22,531 nt of DNA from positions 1 through 22,531 of the IMG/VR virus record IMGVR_UViG_3300020222_000954; one strand, given 5' to 3'. The position numbers were made by a program, and so were the translations under genes. The notes beneath the pieces are model-generated. The model was not told where the DNA came from. It did no database searches and saw only the letters and a list, made by a program, of their open reading frames with translations. This DNA is from a virus. This document shows, one piece after another, positions 1 to 21,618 of the stretch (position 1 is its first letter; the number at the start of each line of letters is the position of its first letter).

Positions 1-1104
1 AATAAATGAAGCCCAATTAGATTGATTAGTTGATACCTCCAGTCCAGCAGGGCAAATAACAGATGTTAACATATCAATTCCAGTAATGGATGGGGATTGA
101 ATTTGGTATTGTGTATTAGGTTGTAAATTATTAATATTTACGCCAGATGTTGTAGTTGACGGTAAATTAAAATCATTTGGTGTGTTGTCATTAAAAACAA
201 AAACAGTAGCATTAGCAGTAACAGTTCCTCCAGGACCACTAGCAGTCATTGTATAAGTTTTAGATGCTGGGCTGTTGCTTCCAGCAACAGATTGTAAATT
301 ACTATCAATATTAATGATGCCACTGCTTCCAATTCCAATTACAGATCCAACACCATTATTAATAGAAATACTATTAGCATATTGTGTTGCCCAAGATAGT
401 GAAACAGTATCGCTAGGAGTTCCACTAATACTAGTTTGTGTACTACCAGTAAATGACGTAATTACAGGAGCATAATAATCCCATTGTATTCTAACAGCTC
501 CATCTGCACCAACTCCACCAAAACCACTATTATTTCCCCCGCCACCTCCGCCATATGTACCACCATCTCGGTCACCAGTACAAGATCCACCAGCAGCAGA
601 TCCATCTAAAGCAGTTCCTCGACCACCAGCTCTAGGTGAATTACATCTACCAGAATTTCCATTTTGATTTCCAGCTCCACCACCTTTACCACCATCATCG
701 TCATCTTCACCATTTTGACCAGATGTTTGAATATCACCAGTAGTTCCATCTCCAGCCTGTCCGCCACCATTATCATCAAACCCAGCTTCACCACCGTCGG
801 CAACTACAATCAGAATACCCGTAGTTGCACGGCAAATACTAGCTTGACCATCTCCACCAGTACGGGTATTATTTCCTAATCGCTGACCCCCTCTTCCAAC
901 AGTAATTAAAAATGTAATCCCAGCACCAACAGTTCTAGTGGATCTAGCAAATCCACCGCCGCCGCCTCCTCCTCCCCTGTCATCGGCGGTCTCGTCCTTA
1001 TAACCAGATCCGCCCCCGCCAATACAAGTAGCTGTGACATTTTTAGTGGCAAATGGAGTTTGAAAACTATAATTTCCTGGACTAGTGTAGTCATTTGTTG
1101 GCAT
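1..1104 (-). CDS. Glycine-rich adhesin-like tail fibre protein (3' end outside window)
   Basis: Only the first 368 codons are inside the window and the frame is open at the left edge, so the protein is partial. The start is ATG at 1104, preceded by a clear AAGGAG ribosome site about 7 bases upstream. Residues 1-30 read like the opening beta strands of phage glycine-rich domains. A long Gly-rich stretch with runs of Gly and an acidic EDDDD segment follows, ending in a VRIQWDY strand. Next comes an Ig-like domain (SFTGSTQ to VFVFN) and then the NDNTPNDF module shared with the next two upstream genes. Polyglycine regions are known from T-even tip adhesins such as gp38 of T2 and S16, so a surface-binding role is inferred. 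It is the last visible member of a four-gene paralogous array. It shares 128 of 131 bases with its neighbour over one segment. Confidence 0.8.
   Translation of the reverse strand, partial: MPTNDYTSPGNYSFQTPFATKNVTATCIGGGGSGYKDETADDRGGGGGGGGFARSTRTVGAGITFLITVGRGGQRLGNNTRTGGDGQASICRATTGILIVVADGGEAGFDDNGGGQAGDGTTGDIQTSGQNGEDDDDGGKGGGAGNQNGNSGRCNSPRAGGRGTALDGSAAGGSCTGDRDGGTYGGGGGGNNSGFGGVGADGAVRIQWDYYAPVITSFTGSTQTSISGTPSDTVSLSWATQYANSISINNGVGSVIGIGSSGIINIDSNLQSVAGSNSPASKTYTMTASGPGGTVTANATVFVFNDNTPNDFNLPSTTTSGVNINNLQPNTQYQIQSPSITGIDMLTSVICPAGLEVSTNQSNWASFI
62..192 (-). repeat. 131-bp near-identical segment, copy 1 (pairs with 1573-1703)
   Basis: Aligned at a constant offset of 1511, this segment differs from 1573-1703 at only three positions. 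Both copies encode the NDNTPNDF/ITGIDM part of the shared C-terminal module. Flanking coding sequence on both sides is much less alike. Confidence 0.9.
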
Positions 1105-1115: not shown

Positions 1116-2786
1116 TTATGTGCTCCTAGGTGTCTGCCAATTGCCAAATACAGCACTTCCTTGTGGTTTTATTCTAATTTGAACATTTGGATTATTTACT
1201 TTTATCTCTACAGGAATTTCAGCATCTGGTGGTGTACCAGAATCTCCCATAACAACTACTGTTGGACTAGTCATATATTGAGATGGTGTGTTAGTTATTT
1301 GATCAATATCTGGATATGGATAATTTACTGAACTGTCACCAAAATCAAATATTTCACTAACGTCTGGTGCTCTAGTAGATATTGTAAATGATTTAGATAA
1401 TGTTCCTACAGTATAATTATATGTTCTAGAATTAATTGCTCCATTAGGATCGCTATTAAATGGTTGAGAAGTAAATCTCAAGAAAAAAGTTTGACTATTA
1501 CTAATGTAAGCCACCGAAGACCAATTTGAACCATTAGTAGAAACTTCTAATCCAGCACTAGTTGTTACTACTGATGTTATCATATCAATTCCAGTAATGG
1601 GTGGGGATTGAATTTGGTATTGTGTATTAGGTTCTAAATTATTAATATTTACGCCAGATGTTGTAGTTGACGGTAAATTAAAATCATTTGGTGTGTTGTC
1701 ATTTCTAACTGAAATAGTAAGATTTTGTGTTGTCGAAACATTTCCAGCATAAAACTTTAAAGTATAGGTGATTGTTGCTGGAGAATTAGTACCAGCAACA
1801 GATTGGAGATTAGTGTCAACGTTGAGAGTTCCAGTAGTTTGCTCAAAGATACTACTAGTACTATCAGTATAAATAAGACTTGGTAGAGGATCTAATTTAT
1901 ATATTTCCAACAAATTTCCATCTTTACAATTCCATTGTAAAGTAGTAGTATCTTGTGGAACTCCAGCATTACCGCTATTTTGAGGATTTGGATTGGCAAT
2001 AAAACTTACTATTTCTGGTGTATATAATGTATACGAAACCCCGACAGATCCATTAGGACTCGCCTCAGATGTATTTAAACTAGAAGATCCATTTACAAGT
2101 GTAGCATAAGACGAATCATATCTACTAGTTCCCCCCATCCCGCCTTCAGCATTCCTCCCACCAGTATTAAACCCAGGTGGTGGATGGTCTCTACCAGAAT
2201 TTCCACCAGCGCCTCCACCAGCGCCCCCGCCGCCACCGCCTCCACCGCCTCCATCGCCGCCCTGAGTTACACCATTTAATCCAGCTCCAATAAGACTATC
2301 AATCAAACCAGTATTCCAACTACTACCATCATTACCTTCAAACCCAGGCAACCTAGGATGACTAGCACCACCGCCACCGCCGCCACCACCTGCGACTATA
2401 ATCCATTTATTAGCAACACTGTCATAGACACCAGTGGCGCCACCACCGCCGCCGCCACCACCAGATGATCCACTGCCCCCACTGCGTCCACCAAATCCAC
2501 CATTTACAAGACCAATACCAAAAATTCCTCTACAATTAGCACAATTAGATGGACCATTTGTGGTTGGAGCAGCCCCAATACTAAATGTTAAATCTCTAGC
2601 AGTAAAATTAGATAGAATAAAAGTTCCTGTTCTACCATCTCCCCTATTACCACCTGGCTGTGAAGCATCATTTCCTCCTCTAGCACCTCTAGCACCAACA
2701 ATTGCTACAGTAACATTTCCAGCATCAGATGGTATGTTAATACTAGTATTAGAAGTATATGTATTGGTAACAACAGTAGAAGCCAT
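1116..2786 (-). CDS. Glycine-rich adhesin-like tail fibre protein, 556 aa
   Basis: A virion surface protein is inferred from composition and context; no enzyme motif is visible. Residues 1-255 form a Gly-rich head with long Gly runs (about 105-117, 133-140, 178-196), an NCANC motif near 81-85 and a closing GVSYTLY strand. Residues about 256-365 (SFIANPNPQ to ISVRN) look like an Ig-type beta domain. Residues about 366-480 form the NDNTPNDF/ITGIDMI module shared by the array. The C-terminal 75 residues carry the FDFGDSSVNYPYPDIDQ and VRIKPQG motifs. A strong GAGGAG ribosome site precedes the ATG. The ATG overlaps the stop of the upstream paralogue by one base (TAATG), so translation is probably coupled. 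The Gly-rich head resembles polyglycine tip adhesins of T-even phages by composition only. Confidence 0.85.
   Translation of the reverse strand: MASTVVTNTYTSNTSINIPSDAGNVTVAIVGARGARGGNDASQPGGNRGDGRTGTFILSNFTARDLTFSIGAAPTTNGPSNCANCRGIFGIGLVNGGFGGRSGGSGSSGGGGGGGGATGVYDSVANKWIIVAGGGGGGGGASHPRLPGFEGNDGSSWNTGLIDSLIGAGLNGVTQGGDGGGGGGGGGGAGGGAGGNSGRDHPPPGFNTGGRNAEGGMGGTSRYDSSYATLVNGSSSLNTSEASPNGSVGVSYTLYTPEIVSFIANPNPQNSGNAGVPQDTTTLQWNCKDGNLLEIYKLDPLPSLIYTDSTSSIFEQTTGTLNVDTNLQSVAGTNSPATITYTLKFYAGNVSTTQNLTISVRNDNTPNDFNLPSTTTSGVNINNLEPNTQYQIQSPPITGIDMITSVVTTSAGLEVSTNGSNWSSVAYISNSQTFFLRFTSQPFNSDPNGAINSRTYNYTVGTLSKSFTISTRAPDVSEIFDFGDSSVNYPYPDIDQITNTPSQYMTSPTVVVMGDSGTPPDAEIPVEIKVNNPNVQIRIKPQGSAVFGNWQTPRST
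1573..1703 (-). repeat. 131-bp near-identical segment, copy 2 (pairs with 62-192)
   Basis: See copy 1: same frame, same protein module in the adjacent paralogue, three mismatches in 131 bases. The sharp edges suggest recent recombination or gene conversion rather than an old duplication. Confidence 0.9.
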
Positions 2787-4447
2787 TATATACTCCTCAC
2801 ATTTTGCCAGCTTCCAAATGTAGAAGTCCCTTGTGGTTTTATTCTTACTTCAACATTTTGATTATTTACTTTTACTTCAACTGGTATTTCAGCATCTCCA
2901 GAAGGTCCGACTTCATTGCCGATTGTCACAGTTGTTGGACTAACTATATATTGAGTTGGAGTATTAGTTACTTGGTCAATATCTGGATATGGATAATTTA
3001 CTTCACTATTGCCAAAATCAAATTTTTCATTTATATTTGGTGCTCTTGTTGTGACATTAAAACTACCACTAGTAGTTCCCACTGTATAATTAATTGTTTT
3101 TTGATTTGTAAGTCCAGATTGACTAGTATTGAAAGGTAATGACGTAAATCTAAAATAAACTGGTTGACTATTTGTTATATAAATTGGATTACTCCAATTA
3201 GATTGATTAGTAGAAAAATCTACACCAGGAGAACTACTTTCTACTTTTGTTATCATATCAATTCCTGTTATTGGTCCAACTTGAACTTGATATTGAACTC
3301 CTGATTCTAAACTACTTAAAGAAATTCCACTTGTGGTTGTAGATGGTATACTAAAACTACTAGGTGAATTATCATTATATACAGATACTGTTATTGGAGC
3401 TGTTGTCACGCTAAAACTATTAGCAAAAAGTCTTAATCTATAAATTTTTTGAGCAGGAGAAACGGAACCAGCAACAGATTGAAGTCCTGTACTGAAAGTA
3501 ACATTACCGTCTGGATTTAAGTTATCGTATAATACAAATGTAGATCCAGTAGATCCTTCTAATATTTGAACTTTTGTTGCATCTGTTGTATCCCAAGTTA
3601 GAGTAATGGTATTACTAGGAACGCCAGCAACGCCACTAGTTTGGGGATTTGGATTGGCAAAAAAAGTATTTAATTCTGGTGTAATAGCAGTATACTTTAA
3701 CCTAATATATCCTGTTGTATTACCAGCACCAGCAGTATTACTTTGAGAAGTTAATGTGGTGACATTACTACGATATCCACTAGAGCCACCGCCGCCGCCA
3801 CTAGTTGAACGAGGGTTACAAAAATCACCACCACCTTGCCCTCCGCCGCCACCACTAGTTCCAGCTCCACCGCCGCCGCCAGATCCACCATCACCAGCCG
3901 CAGCATTACCACCACCGCCACCAGGAGCAATAGATAATGTTCCAGTTGTTGCAGTAAAAGTGCCGCCAGCGGACCCACCCGATCCAGCAGTACATCCCAT
4001 ACCGCCACCACCGCCACCGCCTCCACCAGCAGCAACAATTATATAACTATTCGACAAGGAATCAAAAACTACACTAGCAGCGCCTCCACCACCACCAGCG
4101 CCAGAACTTCCAGTGCCGCCAGTAACACCACTATTGCCACCCTTGGCATTAATATTACTAGCGCCGCCTGTCGAGCTACATCCTCCACATTGAGCAGGTC
4201 TTGCTTGACCTGCACCGCCAGGTAGAAGATTTAAATTTCTAGTAGTATAATCTGGTAAAGTAAAGACACCAACTCTGGCACCACCCCCTGGTTTCCCATT
4301 CCCCGCAGGGGGACCACCATCAGTACCTCCATTTCCACCTTCACCACCTTGAACTGTTAATTGAATATTAACAGCGTTTACTGGTATTGTTACATTTACG
4401 CTGGCACCAGCACTATTATAGGTTGTATCAAAATTAACTTGAGCCAT
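2786..4447 (-). CDS. Glycine-rich adhesin-like tail fibre protein, 553 aa
   Basis: This is a paralogue of the next gene downstream with the same four-part layout. An N-terminal strand region (VNFDTTYNSAG, VNVTIPVNAV) is followed by a Gly-rich head to about residue 250, containing a CGGC motif and ending at GYIRLKYTA. An Ig-like domain (NTFFANPNPQ to VSVYN) follows, then the NDNSPSSF/ITGIDMI module, and a C-terminus with FDFGNSEVNYPYPDIDQ and VRIKPQGTSTFGSW. The ribosome site is weak, but a late-promoter-like CATAAATA lies 22 bases upstream, so this gene may head its own late transcript. A receptor-binding or virion decoration role is inferred from composition and from position after the tail-collar genes. 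The Gly-rich head differs strongly in sequence from those of its neighbours while the C-terminal modules are conserved. Confidence 0.85.
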   Translation of the reverse strand: MAQVNFDTTYNSAGASVNVTIPVNAVNIQLTVQGGEGGNGGTDGGPPAGNGKPGGGARVGVFTLPDYTTRNLNLLPGGAGQARPAQCGGCSSTGGASNINAKGGNSGVTGGTGSSGAGGGGGAASVVFDSLSNSYIIVAAGGGGGGGGGMGCTAGSGGSAGGTFTATTGTLSIAPGGGGGNAAAGDGGSGGGGGAGTSGGGGGQGGGDFCNPRSTSGGGGGSSGYRSNVTTLTSQSNTAGAGNTTGYIRLKYTAITPELNTFFANPNPQTSGVAGVPSNTITLTWDTTDATKVQILEGSTGSTFVLYDNLNPDGNVTFSTGLQSVAGSVSPAQKIYRLRLFANSFSVTTAPITVSVYNDNSPSSFSIPSTTTSGISLSSLESGVQYQVQVGPITGIDMITKVESSSPGVDFSTNQSNWSNPIYITNSQPVYFRFTSLPFNTSQSGLTNQKTINYTVGTTSGSFNVTTRAPNINEKFDFGNSEVNYPYPDIDQVTNTPTQYIVSPTTVTIGNEVGPSGDAEIPVEVKVNNQNVEVRIKPQGTSTFGSWQNVRSI

Positions 4448-4468: not shown

Positions 4469-4498
4469 TATTTATGGAATAGTATTAGAACTTGTCAA
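4469..4498 (-). promoter_or_regulatory. Candidate promoter before the Gly-rich adhesin genes (late-like CATAAATA with an upstream TTGACA)
   Basis: On the minus strand CATAAATA (4476-4469) is one base from the T4 late octamer and 22 bases before the ATG of the 553-aa gene. It sits in the widest gap (24 bases) of the structural operon. A perfect TTGACA (4498-4493) lies 16 bases upstream of CATAAA. The upstream part is coding for the end of the lectin gene, so it may be chance. The late-like element is the better supported half. Confidence 0.5.
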
Positions 4499-5785
4499 TG
4501 TTCCAGAAGATCTGGTAGAAAATAGTGTAGGAGTACTATTTGTAATAATTGATGTTCTGGTTGTGATAGATCCGAAAGGAATTTTTAGCAATCCTTGTCT
4601 TAAATATTTCCAGCTTCCAAACGTAGAAGTTCCAGCTGTTTTAATTCTAACTTGAGTTTCGCTGTTATCGGTAAGCATCTCGGTTCCATATGGATTAGAT
4701 AATTCAACATTGTCTACAACTATAGTTGATGGACTGGTTATATATTGAGTTGGAGTATTAGTTACTTGATCAATATCAGGAAATGGAAATGCTGTCATAG
4801 CATCGCCAAAATCAAATAATTCTTCTAGATTTGGTGCTCTAGTTATAACAGAAAAATACTTCCTTAGTGGTCCAATATCAACATACAAAGATTTTGTATT
4901 TGTTAATGCTAAAGGACTTGTGTTAAAAGGTAAAGTGGTTGTTCTTAATAATAACGATTGCCCAGAAGATACTAAAAGAGAATTAGTCCAATTATTTCCA
5001 TTTAAAGAAATTTCAACTCCCGAACTAACAGTTGATGTAGTTCCCATATCAATACCTGTTATTGGTCCAAATGACCAAATGATTGTAGTGTTAGGTTCCT
5101 GGTCAATTTTAGATGGAACAGTATAATCATTCGGAACATTATCGCTATATGAAGAAACAGTTATGGTAGTGGATACGGATTCATTAAGTTCATTTTTTAC
5201 AACTAAAGTATATGTTCTTGTAGCAGGAGAATTAGTACCTACCGAAGATTGTGGTAAATTTGTAATATTTAAATTACCACCTAAAGAACTAACATTCCAC
5301 GTTTCTCCAGCACTACTAGTAATTGTAGCACTACCACCACTGCCATTAGTAGTTGACCACGTTAAAGTAGTTGTATATTGAGGTGTGCCATTAGGGCTAA
5401 TTTGTGGATTTGGAGAAGCAGAAAAAGAATTTATTACAGGAATTGGAACAAATACCTGCTGTGTGCCAGAAGCAGTTAACTGAATAAAAAGTCTCTTATA
5501 AGTTCCTAGACAAGGGTCACCAAATGTACCATTAACAGGATTTACAGATCCCGAAGTCTTGCCGATAAAAGCATTAGAAACGACCCCAAAAGAAGATCCA
5601 GCATGACATCCACCGTAAGTAAAAGATCCACAAGATCCATTAGGAGTTCCATAGCTAGCAAAAACAACTGAAGTAAATTTTGTTGAGTATGTAGCATTAT
5701 TTGGGGCACTTAAAGATATTGATCCACATCCTTCACAATTAGTACCACAGACTGCGGTGGAATAAGGTACGGCTTTAAATCCCAT
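4472..5785 (-). CDS. Tail fibre-like protein with N-terminal SUEL/galactose-binding lectin domain, 437 aa
   Basis: The N-terminal ~110 residues match the SUEL-type (galactose- or rhamnose-binding) lectin pattern. FASYGTPNGSCGSF is at 42-55, GGCHAGSS at 58-65, VVSNAFIGK at 68-76, then FGDPCLGTYKRLFIQ at 88-102. This order resembles the lectin domain at the C-terminus of plant beta-galactosidases and of sea-urchin and fish egg lectins. Cysteines are kept at 52, 60 and 92, but the two that normally flank the IGK motif are replaced (F73, G79), which may mean one lost disulfide. Residues about 117-210 are Ig-like and 210-437 carry the shared array module (VPNDYTVPS, ITGIDMG, FDFGDAMTAFPFPDIDQ, VRIKTAG). 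A sugar-binding role on host lipopolysaccharide or glycan is inferred. It starts 1 bp after the upstream collar gene. Confidence 0.82.
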   Translation of the reverse strand: MGFKAVPYSTAVCGTNCEGCGSISLSAPNNATYSTKFTSVVFASYGTPNGSCGSFTYGGCHAGSSFGVVSNAFIGKTSGSVNPVNGTFGDPCLGTYKRLFIQLTASGTQQVFVPIPVINSFSASPNPQISPNGTPQYTTTLTWSTTNGSGGSATITSSAGETWNVSSLGGNLNITNLPQSSVGTNSPATRTYTLVVKNELNESVSTTITVSSYSDNVPNDYTVPSKIDQEPNTTIIWSFGPITGIDMGTTSTVSSGVEISLNGNNWTNSLLVSSGQSLLLRTTTLPFNTSPLALTNTKSLYVDIGPLRKYFSVITRAPNLEELFDFGDAMTAFPFPDIDQVTNTPTQYITSPSTIVVDNVELSNPYGTEMLTDNSETQVRIKTAGTSTFGSWKYLRQGLLKIPFGSITTRTSIITNSTPTLFSTRSSGTLTSSNTIP

Positions 5786-5786
5786 A

Positions 5787-6680
5787 TCAAATTTTAATAA
5801 TATATTCTACTAAAACATAAGGCATAATAACATTATCTAATTTTTTAACATTCTCTGTGGATAATTGTATAGTGCTAGTTAATCCGTCAGCAGAAATCGT
5901 TTGATTATCATTATACTTAAATTTAAATGTTGTGGCTGCTTTTAATTGAGTGGAAGTGGGAAAAAGTACTTGGTGGTTATGACTAGGATTGTTAACAGCA
6001 TTACTAGCTCCTTGTATTTGCTCTAAATTGTTAGATCCATCAGTTTTTCCACTATTAGATCCTGATCCACCATTGCTGGTCCAATTACTATCTTTCCATT
6101 TTCCTAGATATGTAAAAACTCCAACATCAGCATTATGACCATGAGCTTGAAAATTATCTTCTGTTAAAAAATCTAATGGAGAATATCCAGCATTATCAGA
6201 TACAAAGAAAGGATTCCCACTGAAGTTTATATCAGTGGCTCCAGTAAGATTAAATGTACCAGCGTAAGTAATTGTTGCTGAACTTCCTACTAGAGAACTA
6301 ACTTCAGTTTCTACTCCAACTTTTGATAGTGTAGTATCTTGAGCTGTTGTTAGATTTAGATATTGACCAGAAGCATTTGAGCATCTAATAAATTTTGATC
6401 CTAAATCTGGTAATTGAATAGAATCTGATGATATAGCGTTTGCTCCAGTAGTCACTTTAGCAAATCTACAACTGGTTCCAATTCCTATTACAGAAGCTAA
6501 TATAGGAAACAAATCAGCTTTGTAAATAGTTCCATCACATCTCAAAAATCCAGCGGGAACATAGTTTTTCCAGTTTCCTTGATCTGGAAAATTTGTTGAT
6601 GGAAGTTGTCTCATAAATGGAATAATAGTTCCAGTTGTACCACCAAATTTTGCCTTTTCTACTGAATAATATTTTGCCAT
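5787..6680 (-). CDS. Phage tail collar domain protein, short tail fibre-like, 297 aa
   Basis: Residues 18-66 carry the tail collar pattern: GTIIPFM, then VPAGFLRCDGTIYKADLFPILASVIG, a hallmark of T4 gp12-like short tail fibres and of microcystin-dependent (Mdp) proteins. IQLPDLGSKFIR (88-99) is the usual next strand. Two HxH motifs (H180-G-H182 and H234-N-H236) resemble the metal-binding histidines of T4 gp12, which coordinate zinc along the trimer axis. The C-terminus (VIMPYVLVEYIIKI) is the typical end of collar-domain proteins. The gene lies 1 bp after the upstream collar gene and 1 bp before the lectin gene, so all belong to one transcript. It is shorter than T4 gp12 (527 aa). The role is inferred as a trimeric receptor-binding or baseplate-attached fibre. 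Confidence 0.85.
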   Translation of the reverse strand: MAKYYSVEKAKFGGTTGTIIPFMRQLPSTNFPDQGNWKNYVPAGFLRCDGTIYKADLFPILASVIGIGTSCRFAKVTTGANAISSDSIQLPDLGSKFIRCSNASGQYLNLTTAQDTTLSKVGVETEVSSLVGSSATITYAGTFNLTGATDINFSGNPFFVSDNAGYSPLDFLTEDNFQAHGHNADVGVFTYLGKWKDSNWTSNGGSGSNSGKTDGSNNLEQIQGASNAVNNPSHNHQVLFPTSTQLKAATTFKFKYNDNQTISADGLTSTIQLSTENVKKLDNVIMPYVLVEYIIKI

Positions 6681-6681: not shown

Positions 6682-8316
6682 TTAGTATGCTCTAATTAAA
6701 TTGGTTATAGCTAAAGATGCTGTAGGTATAGTAAAAATAATTTGAAATGCTCCAGGAACACTATCTGGAGTTACATTAGGTACAACATTAGCAGCTATCG
6801 AATCTGGAATAAAAAGATTACCATTATCATATGTAACATTAAGACTCCCTTGGTGATCATGACATTGAATAACATCTAAAACAGTAAAATTTGTTCTTAC
6901 TGTTTTAGTAAAACTAGTAGCAGCATTATTGAACATGACCGTTGTTGGTGCTACTGTATTATCACTACCTAATCCAGCTGCTAAACCATCATCATAGTTT
7001 ATATAGAAATTTACTGACTTATCATCACTAAAAGGAATATAAGTTCCTTCACGAATTTTTCCATCGAGCCTTAGTTGTTCCAAAGCATTACCAGCAGAAC
7101 TGACATTTCCATTTCCATCTCTTAATTTTTTAGCATCAGTAAACCATCCTTTACCAACGCCATGGGCACCACTAGATGTAAATAAAGCTGTATGAGTTCT
7201 AGCAGGTAATGTACCAGCGATAGATGCTAGAGCATATCTACCAACCCCAGGTTCAAATGGAGCACTGACTGTAATTGTTCCATCTGTTTGTGAACTTCCC
7301 CAAACATTATATCCCTCAAGGCGACCACCTTGACCACAAGCTTGTACTTCTCTGGCACAGAAAATACCTACAGCTGGAAACAAACAATGGGCAAGTTCAC
7401 CAATCACAATTTGTGGACTATCAAAAACACCAACACCTTGTCCTGGATTATCAGAAACATCATTTTTGTTAATACTTAAATATGATCCAGGGTGAAGATG
7501 CTGAGGCATATGTTGCCTTCCTAACTTCCTAGGAACAATATAGATTGGTGTAATATCAAAACCTGGAGTAAATTTTAATTTATTTCCATCAGTATTTTTA
7601 ATAGTTCCCTGAAAAAATCCATTGCCAACAGATGTAACAGTAATTGTGACATTATTAGCAGTTGAATTACCACCAATCAAATTAAATGGTATTGTTAAAG
7701 TATTTCCAGAGACATAACCAGATCCTTTTTGTTTTAAAATGACAGTATATGTTTGGTTGGTATTTTTTACTACATTAAAAAATGCTCCTGTACCAGTTCC
7801 TGATGTAGTAGTAGCAGGGACATTAGAAAATAAAGTTGTAGTCGTACTAGTTGGAGCAGTTCCAGTGAAAGTAAAAGTATTAATAATACCATCTGGATCT
7901 GGGGTATAAGTAAAATTCAAATCAGTTGTGGCATAAACTGTTTGTGGTGGTCCCAAATCTCCTTCAGTTCCAACATATGATGCCACTACACTAGCAGCGG
8001 TTGGAGTATCTACATTAATTGTTGGTTGTGATAGTGTATTACTTGAAAAATATGCAACAGAAATATCTGCTAGTGATTTTTGGTTTACAGTTGGTAATTT
8101 AAATGTACCAGTATAATTTGGAAATGTACCTCCAAAACCTAGTCCACCATATGTGTCTTTTAATACTCTTGCTAGAAGCGGGAATTCATATGCATTTAAT
8201 TCCGCTCCATTACACAAAAGCCAACCTTTCGGAATCCTAGTTAATGACCCACCCCAAGGAACTAAAGATCCTATGGGTTGAGCTTCAGCAGTACGTACTG
8301 TGTTATAACTTGCCAT
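6682..8316 (-). CDS. Phage tail collar domain protein, long form, 544 aa
   Basis: The N-terminus (QPIGSLVPWGGSLTRIPKGWLLCNGAELNAYEFPLLARVL, residues 13-52) is a tail collar domain, continued by FPNYTGTFKLP at 65-75. Residues about 145-235 form an inserted beta domain (GTGTGAFFNVVKN, GSGYVSGNTLTIP, VTITVTSV) of a kind I recall as repeated in cyanophage structural proteins. Candidate metal-binding histidines are HMPQHLH (269-275) and CHDH (485-488). The length is close to T4 gp12, so it may be the main short tail fibre and its 297-aa neighbour a duplicate with its own specificity. The start ATG lies 1 base after the TAA of the giant upstream gene, which gives tight translational coupling. No ligand can be assigned from sequence. 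Confidence 0.83.
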   Translation of the reverse strand: MASYNTVRTAEAQPIGSLVPWGGSLTRIPKGWLLCNGAELNAYEFPLLARVLKDTYGGLGFGGTFPNYTGTFKLPTVNQKSLADISVAYFSSNTLSQPTINVDTPTAASVVASYVGTEGDLGPPQTVYATTDLNFTYTPDPDGIINTFTFTGTAPTSTTTTLFSNVPATTTSGTGTGAFFNVVKNTNQTYTVILKQKGSGYVSGNTLTIPFNLIGGNSTANNVTITVTSVGNGFFQGTIKNTDGNKLKFTPGFDITPIYIVPRKLGRQHMPQHLHPGSYLSINKNDVSDNPGQGVGVFDSPQIVIGELAHCLFPAVGIFCAREVQACGQGGRLEGYNVWGSSQTDGTITVSAPFEPGVGRYALASIAGTLPARTHTALFTSSGAHGVGKGWFTDAKKLRDGNGNVSSAGNALEQLRLDGKIREGTYIPFSDDKSVNFYINYDDGLAAGLGSDNTVAPTTVMFNNAATSFTKTVRTNFTVLDVIQCHDHQGSLNVTYDNGNLFIPDSIAANVVPNVTPDSVPGAFQIIFTIPTASLAITNLIRAY

Positions 8317-8317: not shown

Positions 8318-11300
8318 TTAGATTTCCATTAACCACCAACCTTGTTGTGTTGATGGAGCACCTGTGGTTGTTCCATCATAATTAGTAGAACCAATGAAAA
8401 TTAATCCAAGAGCAGCATTAGGTGTTTGGATAATTAGTTCGCCACCATTATATGTAGATCCTGGATCTGGCGTACCACCAGAATTAGTTCCGTCGCCTTG
8501 TATTCTAGTTCCTGTTGGGCATCTAAATTTGAGTGAAACATTATAAGTCAGTAAACCACCGACATCAACAATTCTTATCATGTCACCAGTTGTGGGAGTT
8601 AATGGCAATTTGATGACCGTATTAGCAGAAGGAGCAACAAAATAGTTTATATTTGATTGTACCTCAATTATTTCGGCGCCTCCACTAGCGTAAATCCACT
8701 TTCTAGCACCAGAAGGAGTAAAGAATCCAGTCTGATTAGCATAGTCAATAGATCCAGTATTATTAATTTTAAAGATATTTGTTTCGACATTGCCGACGAG
8801 TTTACTTACTGTTAGATCACCACCAGTTAATTTAATGTCGCCAACGAATACATTTTCACCAGTTCCGCTAGCAGTAAGTGTCCCGCTGATTGTTAAATTA
8901 CCACTAGAATTTTGTAGAGTTAATCTATTAGTTGTTCCGTCAGAAGCAGTAATAGTTAGATTGCCACCTTTTAACAAGGTATTTCCTGACGATCCAGTAA
9001 CTACAAACTTATCATAGAGAGTTCCACCGACACCCAAATTGCCAGCAATAGATGTATTGCCATTAGCACTATCAACTACAAAATTATTAACTGTAGTACC
9101 ATCAGTGATGATAAGTCTATCTGTATTTGCTGTAGTTGATCCAGAAAGCGTTAGATTTTTATATACTGTAGTATTACCATAGATGCTGGTGTTACCAGTA
9201 GTAGATTCAACAACAAACAATTCTGTAGCTGGGGTTCCACCATCATTGACAACAAATTTTTGTACTGATGTTTCCGTTACACCATTAACAAAAGTTAATT
9301 CACCTAAGTATCCTTCAGCATTAGCAGAAAGTCTAAAGATATCACCAACAGTAACAGTTCCGCTAAACGTTCCAGTGGTAGCATTTTGTAGAGTTCCTGG
9401 TGTAGGAGCATTCAAAGTTGTTGTCAGGAAACTAACAGTTTTTGATAGGTTATATCTAACAAGAATAGCATTATCTGGGTGATCATGTCTTAAGAACTTG
9501 TAACCGCTAGGAGCATTGTTATCAACAACCATTCCACCAGAAGAAGTTAATTGGTTTCTTGCTCTCTTAACTGTAATTCTTAAGGATGGAGGAGACGTAA
9601 TATTATTAATATTTGTAATTTCAACAATTTCAAGAAGCTCACTATATTGTTCTCCAACTGGAGACACTGTAGTATTTTGACCAGTAACTGCTACTGATCT
9701 GTCAATTAATAAGTAAGCACCAACTTCATATTCTAACGAAGTTGCTACTTCACCTATGGGTAAGAAATAAGTTTCTGGATCAGTAGTAGATACTTTCCAT
9801 GTAGTATTTCCATATGTAGCTGCTCCTTCAGTATCAATTGTTTTATTAATTGGCTGTCTCTTATAGAGATCAATATTGAAAATTGTTGTGTTGTTGCCAG
9901 CAGTATGTGTTTGTGTTGGAACACTAAAAGAACCTCTTCTTAACTGGAATGAACCAGAATTAAGACCACCCAATAATGTGGTGTCTCCATTCATTGTGGT
10001 ATTAGCAAGAATAGTTAATGAATTTTGTACTGTTGTATTGCCACCTAGAGCACCGATATTTACAGTAGAAGCAGCAGTAGCAAGATTAACTTTTGATGTG
10101 GTAATAGTTAAGAAATCTACTTGCTGAGCATTTGATTGTAATCTAGCAATACCAGTAGCAGTAGCTAAACCTTTACCAAAAGAAACATCGCCATCAAAAT
10201 GAGCATATCTGTTATAAACTTTCAATATGCTACCATTTATCAAGCTGTCACTATTCTTAGAATAAGCACCACCAATTCTTACAACACTAGTACTGTTTGT
10301 ATTTGTATTATTAGCAGTTCCTAAGGAAATTACAGAACTTGTTGTTGAAGAATGGATGTTTAATACACCAGTAGTACTAAAGGCACCAATGTTAAAGGTA
10401 GAATTAGAAGCAATATTACCAAAATTCACTACTTGTGTACCAGTAGTTACGCTGGCAATATTAAGATTATTAGCACCATCAAAAGCATTTACATCAGTTG
10501 GTGTTGTAGTAAGATTAAAGAATGTCGAAGTAGTTGTTAAAGATCCGCCATTTACTTCAAGATTTGCTTGTAATCTAACATCTTGAGTAATTCTAGCATT
10601 ACCAATAACAACAAATGTTCTATCTAAATCTGTTGATACAGTTCCATTAAATGTTGTGTTAATACCAAATCTACCATTATTTGTGGTCATCACACGTAAC
10701 GTGGAAGCATTATTTGGTGCTGAACTATCACCACCAACTAAGAAAGCATTATTTTGAGTTAAGAATGTTCTAGCAGCAAGAGTTGGATTAGCAGTAAAAT
10801 TATTTGGACTCGTTGCTAAAGTTTTACCACTAATAAAAGCAGTACCAACAATATCAAGATTGGCTCTTGGTTTTACAGCCTCAGAAACAAATCCATTAAT
10901 TTGATCTCCACCAGTACCGTGGGATGCTCTAGCAAGAGTATTAATCCCCAATCTAAAATCACCATAATTGTCAGTATTTGTTCTTAGTGCTTCCGCTCCT
11001 AGAACACCAACTTCTTTCCAAGAATTCCTAGAAATTTCAATTGTAGATCCAGTAATAACAGTAGGATCATTAGGACTTGTAGAAATAACAAATGGAGTTG
11101 TTACTGTAAATGTGCTAGCAGTTTTGTCAGTTACTGTTCTAATTCCATTTACATTAGTAAATCTTCCAGTTAATCCGCCAATTCTTAAAGTAGAACCGAC
11201 TACAATATTTACAGCAGCATCAGTTGTACTGACTCCAGCTTGAAGATTAAATCTAACTAAGTTATTTCCTAAAGCAGTTACAGTAAATACACTGCTTGTG

Positions 11301-14300
11301 ATATCGCTATAGAAATTACTAAATACCCACGCTAATGATCCAGTAGATCCAATTTCTTTACCTTTCAGAAGTATATCGCCTGGTTTAGGTCCACTTGTTC
11401 CAAACTGTATAGCAAGACCTAATGTACTTAGTTCTTGATTTGGGGTGTGGTTGGAAGGTGTATTACCATTTGTTTGGTCAACATGAGTTCTAATACTGTA
11501 ATCTTGACCACTCAGTAAAGTATTGCCTCTAGGATTTAAATTGTAAACACCAGCCCAAATTTGATTTTTATGTAGGACAATATCTCCACCTGAAGGTATT
11601 GAACTTAGATCAAATGCTTGTCCATCTAAGGATATATCATCCCCAGCAATTGAAGAAACATTAGATACGACAGTAAGAGCGTTTGGTTCGTTTGCTTCAA
11701 CATTAATAGTAACTGGATTATTGAAATTAGCGTTACCATCAACTGTAATATCTTTTTCAAATACTACAGGAAGTTCAAAAGTGGTTACAAGACCACCAAT
11801 ATCGCCAGTTTCATCAGCAGAATCTGCTAATACAGCTCTTTCTAGATATGTTTCTTCTCCCGTAATGGCGTTGATTTTACGGTTACCAATATAGAGATCA
11901 CCATTAGAGTTTAGACCAGTATAGAATACAATACCACCATCTTCTTTCTTCGATTGAGCATAAAAATCTTGAATATCAGAAAGAACGACTTCTTGGCGTA
12001 GTGGGAAACCAGTTGAGTAGTTACCAGGACCGAATCCAAGATATTCAAACGTGTGGTTACCAGAACGAGCAATCGATGGTCTACGAAGTTCTACATAAAG
12101 TTTTCCTTCTGTTGGATATGGTGAATCTCCACAGATAGGAATTTTTCTATCTTCAGATCCAGATACAGCGTTACCTTCCTGTGCCTTGATTGCATTTGTT
12201 ACATAATCATATCTAGATAAAGATGGATTTTCAATTAAATCTAATACAGATTCTTTAGTTTCACTGTTCTTGTAATCGTTTGTTGTTACTAGACCATGTA
12301 CATAATTATTGGCGGCACAAACAGTAGGAGGAGTATCTATAATAGAAGTATCTCTAGATCCATCTTGTTTAATTTGGAACCACAATGGATCATTCTTATA
12401 ATTTAATGGGTATAGTTGTGAAATTGGTTGAGAGAACTTATAATATCTAAAGTTTTCCCCAACTCCAGCACCAGTAGGATATGGACTGATATTTCCTTTT
12501 ACTACTGTTAGATAGTAAATTCCAGATTGTTGATTTGGAATTCTTCTTTGAATCTCATTAATATCAAAAATATAGAATGTATCTTCAATTTCTCCAGCAT
12601 CTTCTACAGAAAGAACACGATATTGTACGCTATCATCATCCTCGATAATATCGCCAGGTGTAACAGTTAATACGTTAGCATCTTTATTGCTATAAAGGTA
12701 ATCTGCTTTAGCAGATTTACTTAAAGAATTATCAGTACTGCCTACACTGTTTTCTTTAGCAGCAAGATTAGCATAAATTAAAACTGGATTGTTATTACTA
12801 TCAAAAGTTGGATTTCCGTTTTGATCTAATACTGGTTGTGAGAATTTTGTAGTTATTAAAGAATTATAAGGAATAATTTTATTATCGTCAATATTTTTGA
12901 TAATTAAATAGTGTTTACCAGTTTCCTGAACATTAAAGTATCCTTGTAACCATCCACCACCACTTGAATAACCGCTCCAATTGATTCTACTTAGATCTGT
13001 TGTTGTAGAAGCATTTATTCTGAAGCTTCCTCCCTGTGGAGCGGTAATCTCAACTGTAGTAAATTTATCATTTTTAAGAGCATCATTAGTAATTGTGTGA
13101 TCAAATACTGTAAGTTCTAGTAAATCCGTGCCGCTAATATTTACTTTTCTAGCAGATTGGATCGTAAATCCAATTTTACTTGCTGTTTTATCACTGGTAA
13201 TTACTTTAGACTGACCTGAGTTATAAGGATCGTAATCAAAATTAGCATTTAATTCTGATGAAGTTAATCCTAATTGCTGGGTAATTGTTCCTCCCGTTGG
13301 GTTTGGAATTTCAGTTTCAAAATAAGCAACGTTTGGACTACCACTAGCAACTTTCTTAAGAATAATTTTCTGTGGTAGAAGTTTTCTAGTTTCGTCAGTT
13401 CTTGCTTTGATAACAAATCCTCTTAAAGGATCTCTAACTCCTTCAGCATATTCTGGGATTACATAACGTAATCTATAAATTCTATCAGCAGCTGTTCTAG
13501 AATCAGTAAGTCTCTTATAGAAAGTATTCTTACTTCTTTCGTCTTTTACTGTAGCACCTAGTTCATGTAATCTTTTTAAAATATTATATTGTTCTGTAGT
13601 TTCGTCTTTAACATTTATGTACCACAAACCAGTTCTGGTTATATTAGTAGAAGTTTCAATAACTTGAGCAGTAACATCAAATCTAACTGGACTTACTCTT
13701 TTATCAGCAAATACATAGAAATCTTTACCAAATCCAGAAGTAAATGTTACTCTAGGTGTTCCAGCAAGAGCTTCAGCAGCTGTTGTATGTACGCTAAATG
13801 TCTTAGAAGAAACATATCTTACATAGTAATATTCAGTTGTTGATACTGGAGAACTTACACCGTTAACTGTGATTTGTGGTAATTGAGAATCTGCTGGATC
13901 ACCAAATGTTCTAAAGAAAATTTTCTGAACTTGATTAATATTTCCAGGAGTATCAAAGATATGAGGAATATCTGTTTTAATTACATCAGTTTGCCCAGCG
14001 GTAAAATTACAGGTGTATTTGTGTAAATTATAAGTTTCATCGAGAGTATATTGCTGTAATTCGATTTCAACATTTTGATCAACAGAATCAGTTTCAGAAG
14101 AATAAATGTAAATACCAGCAGCAGCATTTTCTTTTGTGCTAGCAAGCATCAGTTTAGTTGATGCGGTAGGTCCAAAAATATTTGGATATATAGCGTCATC
14201 AGCATAATTTTCTGGGTATGTTCCACGCCCAGGAGCAATTACATAATAGATTGTATTTGTATCAAATCCTCTTGGAAGTCTAATAACTCTTTTATCTGGA

Positions 14301-17300
14301 TAAGTTCCATCTTTTGCTCTAGGAACAAGTCTAACAGGCGTACCAGTTTCAAAGTTATGGGGATTCGATGTTCCACCACCAGTATTAACAGTAAATAAAG
14401 TAGCTCTTGTGGCAAGATTAGCAGTATCTAATGTAGATTCTACTCTGGTGATATTAGTAAACTCAGGTGTAGTTTTTGTAATACCATTCAAATTACCAGG
14501 AGTGTCTTCTGTTCCAATCGATTGAATAAGAATAGCCATCAAATTATTGATGGCAGTAGCAACACCAGCACATGCTGGGTTTAATGGATCTTGTAGAATA
14601 GTTAAATCTTTATATTGAGTTAAAGTAGATCCAGTAATTGTAATGGTTTCATTTCTCATGGCTTGAATAGCCATGTCTCTTACTTGCTGATAAACGTATG
14701 TAGATTGTGATCTTTCGCCTGCTAGTAAAGCAGGTTGAGTAGCATAAAGTAATCCAGCTTCATAAATTTTACTATTAGATCCATACTTAACGTTAAATGT
14801 TAGAGCATCAATAACTTTAAGAACATCATCAATACACTCTTGATTACCTCCAGGAATTACAAATCCAGGGAAGTATGTTAACATCCTATCAACAGCAACT
14901 TCAGCAATTAACTGTTTATTAGACTTGATTAAATTAGAAGCATCAATTGCTGTGCTATTTAAAGGAGATAATCCTTGATTTAAAATTAAATTAACGTTGC
15001 TAAAATATCCTTGAATAGTGGTAGCAATATCAACACATTCTGGATATCCTTTTTCAGTTCCAGTCCAAGTACTTGTATCTTGGAGAATAGTAGGATCTTT
15101 AGTAGCAAATTGTGCTGCCCAAGCACCTTGTAAATTGTTATTGCTATCTGTTAAAGAAGCAGTTTGAGGAAGTTCAAAATACAAATACGCACCACTAGCA
15201 GTAGTGGTGTTGGCAACTACAGTTGTTCCTGTGGATAATTTGCTTCCTTGTGTACCGAGTTCAATTTTTGTAGCATCTAAAATTCTTTTTACATAAACAT
15301 TTGAAGGAATAACAGGGAAATCCGTAACAGGAACAGCATTAGCATTCAATCTACCATTAGTAAAATTAGTAGTATTATAAGCATACTGAGTTACTTTCAT
15401 TCCAATTACAATACCGCTAGTATCACCAATATCAACAATTGGAGACCCAGTAGTTGTAGCACAATTTCTAATTAGATAATCAAAGTTTCTCATTGCTGAG
15501 ATACAAAGATTCTTCACATAATCAAGTCCTTCAATGGTTTCATTTAATTCACTAGTAATATAAGAAAGTTGTCCACCAACATAGTATCCTTCAGCAGCTT
15601 GAATCGTATTGATATTTCCACCAAGTCTTAAATCTTGAATAACAGCATCAACAAAGATACCAATATCTCTTTGACATTTAGAGATGGTAATATTAGTATT
15701 TGTAAGAAGATTTGGATATTTTTGTATGATATATCCGTATGCTTCCTGTTGAATGAACGTTTTATTATCTTCAATTCTATTAGCAGCATCTTGTGCTACA
15801 CTATCAATAGAAACTCCATCTGGATTTAAAGTATCTAATGATACGGTATATCTCTTAAATCCTGATGGTGATAAAGTACAATTATATTCGTCTGTAGACC
15901 CACTAGTTGATTTTAACTTTAGAAAAATCTTCTCATCATTTTTAGCACCTAATCTATATGTTTCAATAGTTGTGGTTGGTTTAGTGAATGGATCATAAGC
16001 ATTATCAGCACCATAATATAGCTTTGTATTGTTAGATTCTAATTTTGTTGGTTGTAGAGCAATTGAATAATATTTTAAAGTATTTTCATTGAAAGAACTA
16101 GAATCAATTTCTTTTACTGGAATAATATCTGTAATGTATCCGCCTTTATCTTGATTAAAAGCAAATCCTTTAAATCCAGCAGCATGTAGTGACGTATTAC
16201 CGAAGTTTGAGTTGGAGTTGGTGATAGACATATCACCACCAGATTCCATTAAGAAGTGATCATGGAATCCTACAGCGAATACCGATACACACTGGATGAA
16301 GGCATCATTAGAAGCACGGATGTGGAAGTTTCTCCAATCATCTTTCCAATAAGCGTCACCTTTTGCGTGATAAGGAACAGTAGCAAAAGCATCAGTTAAT
16401 GATGCCTGATTCCAAGTGTTTGTAAATTCATCATAACGAATAAACGCTCTGTCATCTTTCTGTAGAGAAACCCCAGTGTACTGAGCGACAACCATTGAGC
16501 GGAAACCAGTTGCTTTGGCACCATCCGCCCACATACCACAAATACCCCATGTGGATCTAATTGAGCAGTTAAACACATATGGAGAAGCAGATTCTACAGA
16601 ATCAATTTCTGCTTGTCCACGAGCGTTTGTACTTAATGCTGGAGTGCTTCCTGTGCTATATCCATCTTGTGTAATATCTAACCCAAGAATTGCTATCGTT
16701 GAATTTACTTCATATTCAAATACTTTTGGATTATTTCCAACGTTAGTAGCAGTTACTTTAAATGTTCCATTTAAAAGATCATTCAATCCATTATCAATAA
16801 TGGCAATATATTGATCTTTAAAGTATCCATGAGCAATTTTAGTAGTTACACGTACAGTTGTCTTTTCTGTATTTGTATTAGCAACTAGTTTGATATTAAC
16901 AATACTTCTTGTATCAGAAAGAGGTCCAACAATTCTATTTTCTTGTGGTAATGGTTCAAAATCACCATCATCAATTGTTGGTTGGAATAAAGCAAAAGCT
17001 CTAGCAACTTTTTGATAGTAAAGGTCTAATTCCTGGTTTTCTGCATACTCCATAATGCAGATTTTGTGGTGTGAGTACTCAGGAACAGCAAGTTGAGAAA
17101 CATTACCCTTCTGGAAGTAAACTTTACCTACATTATCAGTTTCGTCAAATAATGGAGAATTGCTTGAAAGATCTCCATCTTTAATAGTAAATTGCCAAAT
17201 ATAGCATCCACCAGTTAGATTGAAAATGGAAGTTCTTCCTTGTGTTCCATCTGTAGGGTCTGGAACATAAAGAGGACGTACAATAGTTCTACGAAGATCA

Positions 17301-19376: not shown

Positions 19377-19418
19377 AAGTCACACGGAAGGGGTTTGGTT
19401 TGATGGCAGTATCGCCAA

Positions 19419-19490
19419 CTGGAGTGGTGGGATTCGAACCTACGACCAATCGGTTAACAGCCGACCGCTCTACCACTGAGCTACACTCCA
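19419..19490 (-). tRNA. tRNA-Asn (anticodon GTT)
   Basis: The cloverleaf folds with a 7-bp acceptor stem (TGGAGTG/CACTCCA), a GCTC/GAGC D stem, an anticodon stem GTCGG/CCGAT with loop CTGTTAA giving anticodon GTT, and a T arm with TTCGAAT and one A-C mismatch. The discriminator is G and no CCA is encoded. It lies 25 bases after the coiled-coil protein gene and before the terminator, so it is probably co-transcribed with that operon. It decodes AAC and AAU. Confidence 0.95.
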
Positions 19491-19515
19491 ATGAGTCAGG
19501 ATTGCTTACAATACA

Positions 19516-20076
19516 TCATTCTACATCCTCGAAAAAGATAGTGTGGTATTCACCTTCTACTTCTTCAAAGGTAAAGTTTTCGTGCCAAGCATAGGATATC
19601 ATCTCCTTGACTGTTAATACTTGATCTTTCTCAAAGACATCTGTATATTTGATGTTGATAAATCTAACTTTGTAAGTCATTTTGCAAGAAGTTTTGGAAA
19701 AATATAAAAGTGAAGAGAACATATCAAGAAGGTCTGCGGCTTGATTACAGATTATACCATGTTTAGTAAAGTATTGGTCAATCATTTCTTCATTTTGAGC
19801 CCAAGAACGAAGTTCAAGTGCAAGTTCTGTTGCGAGTTCTTGATGTTCAATCTTCGCAAGTTCCTTCATTGCATCCGAATGTTCCTCAATAAAGTTCTTT
19901 GCGATGTCTAGGACTTTGTTTTCTTTTTCTCTTCGTGCTGCCTCTTCCAGCATTTCTTCGTGGTTCATAAGTTCTCGGATTTTCTCCTTTCCGTATTGTG
20001 TGAGTTCTTGTTTTTTACTACGAAGTTCTTCAACTTCTTTTTGAGTCAGATTGACCCAGGGCATATCATCGTTCAT
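19516..20076 (-). CDS. Hypothetical coiled-coil protein, 186 aa
   Basis: I do not recognise this protein. I chose the ATG at 20076 because it overlaps the upstream stop as ATGA. The frame is open 5 codons further to a TTG, which is a poorer start lacking a ribosome site. Residues about 8-100 are rich in E, K, L and A with no prolines (KEVEELRSKKQELTQYG, EEMLEEAARREKENK, ELATELALELRSW), consistent with a long helical or coiled-coil segment. The C-terminal 70 residues change to a mixed beta-like sequence (MTYKVRFINIKYTDV, FTFEEVEGEYHTIFF). It is the last protein gene of its operon, followed by tRNA-Asn. No catalytic motif is visible. Confidence 0.75.
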   Translation of the reverse strand: MNDDMPWVNLTQKEVEELRSKKQELTQYGKEKIRELMNHEEMLEEAARREKENKVLDIAKNFIEEHSDAMKELAKIEHQELATELALELRSWAQNEEMIDQYFTKHGIICNQAADLLDMFSSLLYFSKTSCKMTYKVRFINIKYTDVFEKDQVLTVKEMISYAWHENFTFEEVEGEYHTIFFEDVE

Positions 20077-20306
20077 CGTGGTGGAGGACAATATAAAAAA
20101 TACTTGTATTCAGCAAGTGGTCCGTAATGCCACTGTATTATATCACATTCTTTGTAAGTGCCAATCACTTTGGTAGATTGTGATTCAACTGGAGGATTCT
20201 GTGACTGATAGAGTAGAAAAATAATTAGAATAACTCCTCCCACAATAATACCAATAGAACCAGCACCACGTAAAAACTCTTTAAGTGCTACTTTATCATC
20301 GTTCAT
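20073..20306 (-). CDS. Small single-pass membrane protein, 77 aa
   Basis: One strong hydrophobic segment at residues 15-33 (AGSIGIIVGGVILIIFLLY) is preceded by charged residues and followed by a polar tail of about 44 residues with two cysteines (C54, C73) in aromatic surroundings (QWHYGPLAEYKYFLYC). It is likely anchored in the host inner membrane. It has no cleavage motif that would make it a secreted protein. The gene overlaps both neighbours by the ATGA arrangement, with the CpeT-like gene upstream and the coiled-coil gene downstream, so expression is coupled. Its first four residues, MNDD, are also the first four of the downstream gene. I cannot assign a function. Confidence 0.72.
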   Translation of the reverse strand: MNDDKVALKEFLRGAGSIGIIVGGVILIIFLLYQSQNPPVESQSTKVIGTYKECDIIQWHYGPLAEYKYFLYCPPPR

Positions 20307-20755
20307 AACTTATCAAATTCAAACATACCAGTTTCTTTGCCCCATACTAGATTACCATCAGCATCATATCCAGCATCTCTACCATAGTATTTCTTATCGT
20401 TGAACTTGATTTCACTAATAATCTTGATATCTTTGACAATACAAGTATCACAGGGTTGATACACCCAGAACTCACCATCCCAACAAATGGTATGTACACA
20501 CAACTCGTTCCAACTACTGTCGTAGGTATAAAATAAAACCTCGTTATCATTCACCTGTTCAAAGGTATGAAATGATTCCCGATAAGGTTCTGGATTTTCT
20601 TTTTCCACCAGATCAATTTCATAGAAACTTTGAGATCTAATTCTATTACCAAATCCCATGCTATCCCACACCAAGCGGATCATAGCATAATCAAATGGAT
20701 ACATAAAAGCTTGATTTTTATTAGAATATTGTCCTATAATTTCTCCAAATTTCAT
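20303..20755 (-). CDS. cpeT: CpeT/CpcT-like phycobiliprotein chromophore lyase, 150 aa
   Basis: CpeT-type lyases attach phycobilin to phycoerythrin or phycocyanin beta subunits in the host light-harvesting antenna, and several cyanophages carry a version. The family landmarks are present in order: GQYSNKNQA at 8-16 (family form G-x-F-S-N-x-x-Q-A), PYRE at 57-60, the QPCD motif at 100-103, and a C-terminal RDAGYDADGNLVWGKETGMFEF (126-147) that matches the conserved D-x-G-x-D-x-x-G-x-x-V-W-G-x-x-x-G-x-x-x-F ending. At 150 residues it is shorter than host CpeT (roughly 200), in keeping with phage forms. The gene sits 29 bases after the 2OG oxygenase gene and has no clear Shine-Dalgarno. Altered pigment maturation or bilin binding during infection is inferred. 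An exact subfamily (CpeT or CpcT) cannot be set from sequence. Confidence 0.8.
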   Translation of the reverse strand: MKFGEIIGQYSNKNQAFMYPFDYAMIRLVWDSMGFGNRIRSQSFYEIDLVEKENPEPYRESFHTFEQVNDNEVLFYTYDSSWNELCVHTICWDGEFWVYQPCDTCIVKDIKIISEIKFNDKKYYGRDAGYDADGNLVWGKETGMFEFDKL

Positions 20756-20784
20756 ATCAGCACAGTACCAGAGGTTAATTTTTA

Positions 20785-21402
20785 TTAATTAGAGCTAGGG
20801 TGTAAAAATTGAGTAATACAGAATCTACCAAGTTTTTGATCTAAATCCTTTTTTTTCATAACAACAGGATCAACTTTATGAGAAATCATAGAAGGAAATA
20901 TTACCATTCTATTGTTTAACACATTAATCTTGTTTTTATTATAAAAATGTAAATCTCCACCTTTAAATTTTTTTGGTTCTTTATAAAACCAAGTCAAAGA
21001 CGTTATACACGATTCATCAGAGTGAAAGTTGTAATAATCTTTATTTTCATAATAAGAGAGTAATGTAAAATCACTCTCACATTTAAAGTTTTGGTAAAAC
21101 CAATGATTGCTATCTTTAACAATAGAATCCCAATAATCAAATATCTTTCTGTTCACTGTTAAAATATTAGAAGCATCTCTAACGGTATAGATCTCATCCA
21201 CAAATATAGAATAATTACTTTTTTTTAAAGAATTTCCAAATTCATCTACCGCCGCACCAGATCCAACTTGAGACCCAAAATGCATAGCATTTTTCTTTGT
21301 TAAAAAATTTAACTCGTCCCATATTAAATCTAATTCTTTTTCATCATAGTAATCATCAATTACTATAGCAGGAAATTCAAAATTTACATGATTAATTTTC
21401 AT
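20785..21402 (-). CDS. 2-oxoglutarate/Fe(II)-dependent oxygenase, 205 aa
   Basis: The double-stranded beta-helix metal site is visible: H127-S-D129 (in YNFHSDES), distal H175 (in SMISHKVDPV), and R193 (in GRFCITQF), the likely 2-oxoglutarate carboxylate anchor. FKGGDLHF at 146-153 fits the strand after the HxD motif in prolyl-hydroxylase-like enzymes, and MVIFPS fits the strand before the distal His. Such enzymes hydroxylate proteins, nucleobases or small molecules and are frequent in T4-like cyanophages. The substrate here is unknown. The start ATG lies inside the last codons of the 53-aa upstream gene (11-base overlap), so the two are coupled. The length and motif spacing are normal for the family, and no key residue is missing. 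Confidence 0.88.
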   Translation of the reverse strand: MKINHVNFEFPAIVIDDYYDEKELDLIWDELNFLTKKNAMHFGSQVGSGAAVDEFGNSLKKSNYSIFVDEIYTVRDASNILTVNRKIFDYWDSIVKDSNHWFYQNFKCESDFTLLSYYENKDYYNFHSDESCITSLTWFYKEPKKFKGGDLHFYNKNKINVLNNRMVIFPSMISHKVDPVVMKKKDLDQKLGRFCITQFLHPSSN

Positions 21403-21553: not shown

Positions 21554-21618
21554 TTTCACCCTCGACTTTTTTAGTGATTTTTTGGCGGAATTTTTTTTCC
21601 TGTTTTTATGTATCTAAG
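21554..21618. other. AT-rich non-coding gap between tRNA-Leu(TAG) and the 53-aa gene
   Basis: The stretch contains A/T runs and, on the minus strand, AAAAAAAATTCCGCCAAAAAATC. I see no TATAAATA late motif and no convincing -35/-10 pair. It may hold an unrecognised early or middle promoter for the oxygenase-CpeT operon, or the operon may be read through from the tRNA cluster. Confidence 0.4.

Follow-up and report, generated by a model that had tools for sequence, protein, structure and literature searches.

A SUEL-type lectin head on a candidate tail-fibre adhesin of a T4-like cyanophage

Little is known of the parts with which cyanophages bind their receptors, and less still of the host sugars that they use. 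In the window, the whole 22,531-nucleotide stretch of viral DNA analysed in this study, one gene appeared to begin with a galactose/rhamnose-binding lectin domain, which raises the question of whether this head is a genuine lectin, how it came to sit on a phage protein, and what it might bind.

The lectin domain and its predicted sugar-contact site

The original prediction had placed a SUEL-type lectin on the first ~110 residues of an open reading frame (ORF) at 4472-5785. The ORF lies exactly there, on the minus strand, encoding 437 aa, with the following parts:

4472..5785, minus strand: SUEL-headed adhesin-like coding sequence, 437 aa (ORF; homologs in the matching neighbourhood of other contigs)
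5447..5785, minus strand: SUEL lectin head, residues 1-113 (profile, PDB matches, AF2 model)
5477-5680, minus strand: PF02140 match within the lectin head, residues 36-103 (Pfam profile)
5147..5446, minus strand: Ig-like domain 1, residues 114-213 (full-length model; Ig/Fn3 fold matches)
4838..5113, minus strand: Ig-like domain 2, residues 225-316 (full-length model; Ig/Fn3 fold matches)
4475..4828, minus strand: C-terminal region, residues 320-437, of no confidently predicted fold and partly common to paralogs (full-length model; paralog comparison)

All lectin motifs named in the original prediction were found within residues 1-112, including FASYGTPNGSCGSF (residues 42-55), GGCHAG, FIGKTSG and FGDPCLGTYKRL. 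The DPC motif reads DPCLGTYKRL, and the animal YGR motif is here YGT, a change shared by most of the bacterial and viral domains aligned; both YGR and DPC motifs occur in almost all, but not all, RBL domains (PMC3269628). Two of the checks suggested beforehand, a profile search and a fold comparison, both came out in favour of a lectin. In a Pfam search the 437-aa ORF matched PF02140 significantly (E=7.6e-10, 39.5 bits, curated cut-off 31.4), and phmmer against the PDB matched it to sea-urchin SUL-I (5h4s, 1.3e-19), the lectin-like domain of rice beta-galactosidase (5iaz, 4.5e-08) and salmon CSL3 (2zx0, 2.8e-07). The AlphaFold2 model of the head, built on an alignment of 34 sequences, reached a pLDDT of 86.3 and a pTM of 0.71, and its significant Foldseek matches were to SUEL-type lectins alone: all 14 PDB matches at E<=0.001 were SUEL, RBL, latrophilin or beta-galactosidase lectin domains (query TM 0.58-0.72), and the next-best match followed at E=0.2. 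The head is predicted to adopt the SUEL alpha/beta fold. In the full-length model most blocks of the lectin (residues 1-113) exceeded a pLDDT of 90 and residues 320-437 were poorly predicted, while the non-lectin Foldseek matches were mostly fibronectin-III/Ig-type proteins and bacterial adhesins. The N-terminal head of the 437-aa ORF is confirmed as a real SUEL/rhamnose-binding lectin domain.

The monosaccharide contacts of CSL3 are Glu7, Tyr27, Asn74, Asp79, Gly83 and Lys86 (PMC3269628, a review). All six are kept in the head when mapped by alignment, and they are conserved in most or all rows of a 150-row domain alignment of bacterial, viral and animal/plant SUEL domains (counts in brackets):

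5495..5734, minus strand: whole stretch of the six predicted sugar-contact residues (CSL3 contacts mapped by alignment)
5732-5734, minus strand: E18, predicted sugar contact (148/150)
5651-5653, minus strand: Y45, predicted sugar contact (149/150)
5531-5533, minus strand: N85, predicted sugar contact (146/150)
5516-5518, minus strand: D90, predicted sugar contact (150/150)
5504-5506, minus strand: G94, predicted sugar contact (143/150)
5495-5497, minus strand: K97, predicted sugar contact (150/150)

Since the full contact site is retained, the head is predicted to bind L-rhamnose/D-galactose-type sugars, and its target would most likely be such sugars on the host surface.

The four disulphides of animal RBLs (C1-C3, C2-C8, C4-C7 and C5-C6) are not present as a full set. 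The C60-C92 pair, canonical C4-C7, is invariant (150/150 rows), and C13 and C52, which tend to co-occur (both in 68 of the 150 rows, neither in 77, mismatched in 5), probably form the equivalent of C1-C3. The C2 position is Ala27 and the canonical C2-C8 disulphide is lost. Both positions flanking IGK are non-Cys, in agreement with the loss noted in the original prediction; this canonical C5-C6 pair is complete in 20 of the 150 rows, missing in the other 130 and never represented by one cysteine alone, and since so many related domains do without it, it is not defining for the wider Pfam family. C17 and C20, predicted to pair in the head, occupy positions that are both Cys in 5/150 rows. Cysteines at positions 24 and 80, absent in the window, occur together in the cyanophage heads of L005, L008 and L009 and never singly in the 150 rows, and this constant pairing suggests a disulphide special to that lineage, unlike those described for animal RBLs.

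Cyanophage setting and exchange of heads

A sibling contig of 156.6 kb (L002) contains a 16.3-kb piece that is 99.96% identical to the window across 13.8 kb. Its gp23 shares 89.5% identity with that of Synechococcus phage Sf-FR1 and 88.5% with that of S-PM2, which is classed in Kyanoviridae, and its terminase (TerL) shares 84.6% with that of S-CAM1. This kinship supports the cyanophage setting assumed at the outset, and these two markers place the virus among T4-like cyanomyoviruses of the S-PM2/S-CAM1 kind; from the same kinship alone we propose that its host is probably a Synechococcus-like cyanobacterium. Many marine cyanomyoviruses carry psbA; the photosynthesis family PF00124 gave no match in 23 contigs including L002, many of them fragments, a result that counts neither for nor against the assignment.

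The genes around the lectin gene are:

8318..19300, minus strand: giant tail fibre protein, 3660 aa (phrog_4527 short tail fiber protein)
6682..8316, minus strand: short tail fibre/collar protein, 544 aa (phrog_4591, PF07484)
5787..6680, minus strand: tail collar protein, 297 aa (phrog_4714, PF07484)
2786..4447, minus strand: paralog with Gly-rich head, 553 aa (ORF, PHROG match, alignment)
1116..2786, minus strand: paralog with Gly-rich head, 556 aa (ORF, PHROG match, alignment)
1..1104, minus strand: third paralog, cut by the window edge (whole in the sibling contig: 498 aa, Gly_rich_2 PF21722 head)

The order is tail fibre, collar, collar, adhesins, with the lectin gene downstream of the 3660-aa fibre and the two collar/short-fibre genes, and with Gly-rich paralogs matching PHROGs named virion structural protein further downstream. 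The lectin-headed gene is thus both a member of a tail-fibre cluster and paralogous to matches of virion-protein PHROGs.

Several other features were observed in this region. The 3660-aa tail fibre (8318-19300, minus strand) has phycobiliprotein-like repeats of the type 'KC.RDIG..VDA...DL..GGN'; the Phycobilisome family PF00502 matched the whole protein at E=8.1e-12 and 45.8 bits (cut-off 22.2), no single stretch passing, and all 18 weak PDB matches of its residues 1400-1540 were phycobiliproteins or their kin (best E=0.044). A tandem duplication of 129 nt at 80% identity lies inside the gene (18699-18956). Also on the minus strand are a CpeT/CpcT-family protein (20303-20755, PF06206, 2.1e-11), of a family tied to phycobiliprotein handling, a 2OG-Fe(II) oxygenase (20785-21402, PF13640, 1.1e-08), and seven tRNA genes in 19418-22504 (Asn, two Leu, Thr, Met and two Ile).

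Behind its head, the lectin ORF shares ~41% identity with the paralogs at 2786-4447 and 1116-2786, which bear a Gly-rich head in place of the lectin, in agreement with the original description. Among the genes of contig L006, the window head and first Ig domain are nearest that contig's own lectin gene (82% and 75%), and the second Ig domain and C-terminus are nearest a Gly-rich gene at 4692-6386 (69% and 72%, against 42% and 40% for the L006 lectin gene). The location of the lectin head and the nearest tail on different L006 genes points to shuffling of modules, the simplest reading being an exchange near residue 225, close to the start of Ig-like domain 2. At least eight unlike N-terminal heads were found on the shared scaffold in related contigs, with several genes per contig in varying order. 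These heads were sorted by eye from N-terminal sequences, after a scan with the shared tail and inspection of the preceding part, and the contigs carrying unlike heads on the Ig-Ig-C-terminal scaffold are L002, L004, L006, L060 and L223-L232. Together with the L006 exchange, they support the earlier suggestion that the lectin head is a modular unit. Most of the alternative heads have no Pfam match. Two heads correspond to different stretches of a single long virion protein, phrog_29022, which suggests that in other cyanophages these modules are strung into one chain.

Distribution, origin and selection

Ten other contigs of the group (L001-L009 and L223) carry the lectin head; some of these contigs are incomplete, and two are nearly identical to the window. 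No match to it was found in 50,697 isolate phage records, even at E<=1, and among those records the scaffold occurs in Sf-FR1 only, with another head. Relatives of the SUEL domain amount to at least 121 viral-contig stretches and at least 95 bacterial-genome stretches; bacterial domains of this type are widespread, above all in Bacteroidota, and the best cellular matches of the head are bacterial proteins. While the membership in one family with plant beta-galactosidases and animal egg lectins stands, the nearest cellular kin found are bacterial, not plant or animal. In a tree the cyanophage heads fall into a single clade (SH-aLRT 96), separate from the other viral SUEL domains; the tree, a quick one on 98 columns, without bootstraps and with weak deep branches, did not single out a donor, Bacteroidota included, and L154 was left out of it by the motif filter used for cutting domains. 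A plant or animal origin of the head is not supported, as the sea-urchin and rice domains fall outside the cyanophage clade and its closest cellular matches come from bacteria.

Of the other viral SUEL cases examined, most are long proteins of a secreted type that have Pro/Thr-rich stalks, and those of L010-L045 were rejected as relatives of the cyanophage adhesin due to their differing architecture, with a signal-peptide-like start and a Pro- or Thr-rich stalk. At least one of these contigs, L017, also encodes a WhiB protein (PF02467, 7.6e-15), suggesting an actinophage origin. SUEL domains in other phage tail settings support an adhesin: a lambda J-like (gpJ-like) tail tip protein at L154:1659-4163 (phrog_31, 1.8e-87) holds a SUEL-like domain scoring below the PF02140 cut-off, and SUEL-type small genes adjoin tail-fibre genes in L196 (PF02140 above cut-off) and L173 (no PF02140 match reported).

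The dN/dS of the head was 0.08-0.2 for the window versus L003, L004 and L005 and 0.42 for L004 versus L005, and that of the rear half was 0.24-0.32 among the window, L003 and L004; these values indicate purifying selection on the lectin head, which is not hypervariable. Two uncultured Caudovirales proteins are already named SUEL lectin in BFVD, thus SUEL in phages is already annotated, and a search of the open-access literature turned up no phage tail described as bearing a SUEL/rhamnose-binding lectin. What seems to be new is the swappable head of the cyanophage adhesin, the SUEL domain in uncultured phages being known from databases. For cyanomyoviruses at large, we lean slightly towards a recombining rack of adhesins, in which an Ig-Ig-C-terminal scaffold would take any of at least eight N-terminal heads, each genome having several of them. 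SUEL would have been acquired a single time in this lineage and on separate occasions by other phage tails, and the putative rhamnose/galactose reader would move as a unit with the first Ig domain.

Proposed function and comparison with known systems

The gene product is likely to be an adhesin associated with the tail fibres of a T4-like cyanophage, with a SUEL head that grips host-surface sugars and with heads recombined on a common scaffold. The protein would consist of a single SUEL-type rhamnose/galactose-binding head, two Ig-like spacers and the C-terminal region shared with its paralogs. We infer that it is part of the virion, that its head lies distally, and that it takes part in adsorption, during which the head would most likely grip L-rhamnose- or D-galactose-like residues of the host O-antigen or exopolysaccharide through its Glu/Tyr/Asn/Asp/Gly/Lys site, as animal lectins do. 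The phage would keep several adhesins side by side and vary its binding by recombining heads onto the common scaffold. Some cyanophages use LPS as receptor, and both rhamnose and galactose are present in cyanobacterial exopolysaccharides (PMC4390846). Strong conservation of the head, in contrast to the variability of many receptor-binding tips, counts against an adhesin. So does its position: tail fibres usually attach by the N-terminus and the heads here are N-terminal, which leaves the distal end of the adhesin uncertain. Pam3 gp24, for example, docks to the baseplate through its N-terminal domain (PMC9608196).

That same conservation would fit a general rather than a strain-specific target, as expected if the lectin sat in the virion and bound non-receptor sugars of algal mucilage, organic aggregates or exopolysaccharide, concentrating phages near hosts. 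The several paralogous heads per genome would leave the receptor role to another head, and Ig-like domains of phage structural proteins have been proposed for weak glycan adherence; we nevertheless regard this explanation as improbable, because a place next to collar/short-fibre genes suggests adsorption machinery and head exchange among paralogs fits host-surface recognition. The latrophilin lectin domain, of the same fold, acts largely by protein binding, thus a SUEL fold alone is no proof of sugar binding, and the head might be a protein-protein module or structural cap without sugar recognition, as in latrophilin-teneurin binding. The fold matches include latrophilin lectin domains that have protein partners, and the canonical C2-C8 and C5-C6 disulphides are lost, but the six monosaccharide-contact residues are all kept in the window and in nearly all of the 150 relatives, and we give this possibility still less weight. 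A protein outside the virion, either released at lysis or serving as a fibre-assembly chaperone, is very unlikely. The paralog at L002:12682-14178 does weakly match a tail fiber assembly PHROG (E=0.0005), but inspection by eye shows no hydrophobic signal peptide at the N-terminus of the lectin protein, and the PHROGs matched by its paralogs bear the name virion structural protein. A chance resemblance of short motifs, to which the cysteine losses relative to animal lectins might point, is refuted by the PF02140 match and other E-values, the AF2 model and its Foldseek matches, dN/dS well below 1 and the homologs on ten other contigs.

For the favoured adhesin, the lectin head has a known animal counterpart and keeps the sugar site in full, which predicts a ligand class open to direct testing; heads that can be exchanged on one scaffold are a clean system for studying changes in phage binding. 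Compared with the SUEL/RBL family (CSL3, SUL-I, latrophilin Lec and the C-terminal domain of plant beta-galactosidase), the window head is alike in profile match, predicted fold, DPCxGTYK, the six sugar-contact residues, C4-C7 and probably the C1-C3 cysteines; it differs in having YGT for YGR, in the loss of the C2-C8 and C5-C6 disulphides, in an extra CxxC at 17-20, and in being a single domain on a phage Ig scaffold. Bacteroidota SUEL domains (e.g. L061-L067) share ICGT.xEG...FASYGTPNGSCGSF...GGCHA with it at no more than 57% identity, but belong to cellular proteins, often with a signal-peptide-like N-terminal stretch and with no common flanking domains seen. The uncultured Caudovirales proteins A0A6J5PD65 and A0A6J5NGG5 (BFVD) have the same fold and 36-43% identity over the domain; compared by length and domain, they resemble the stalked L010-L045 proteins at ~650 aa rather than the 437-aa adhesin. 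Pam3 gp24 and S16 gp38 carry a Gly-rich receptor-binding module in a tail protein, and the sister genes in the window have what appear to be comparable Gly-rich heads; the Gly-rich domain of Pam3 gp24 lies distally, on the C-terminal side of the attachment part (PMC9608196), whereas the window heads are N-terminal and one is a lectin. The Sf-FR1 gene SfFR1_22 occupies the same place after the collar gene and has the same scaffold (35% over residues 172-393), but bears a non-SUEL head where the window protein has its lectin.
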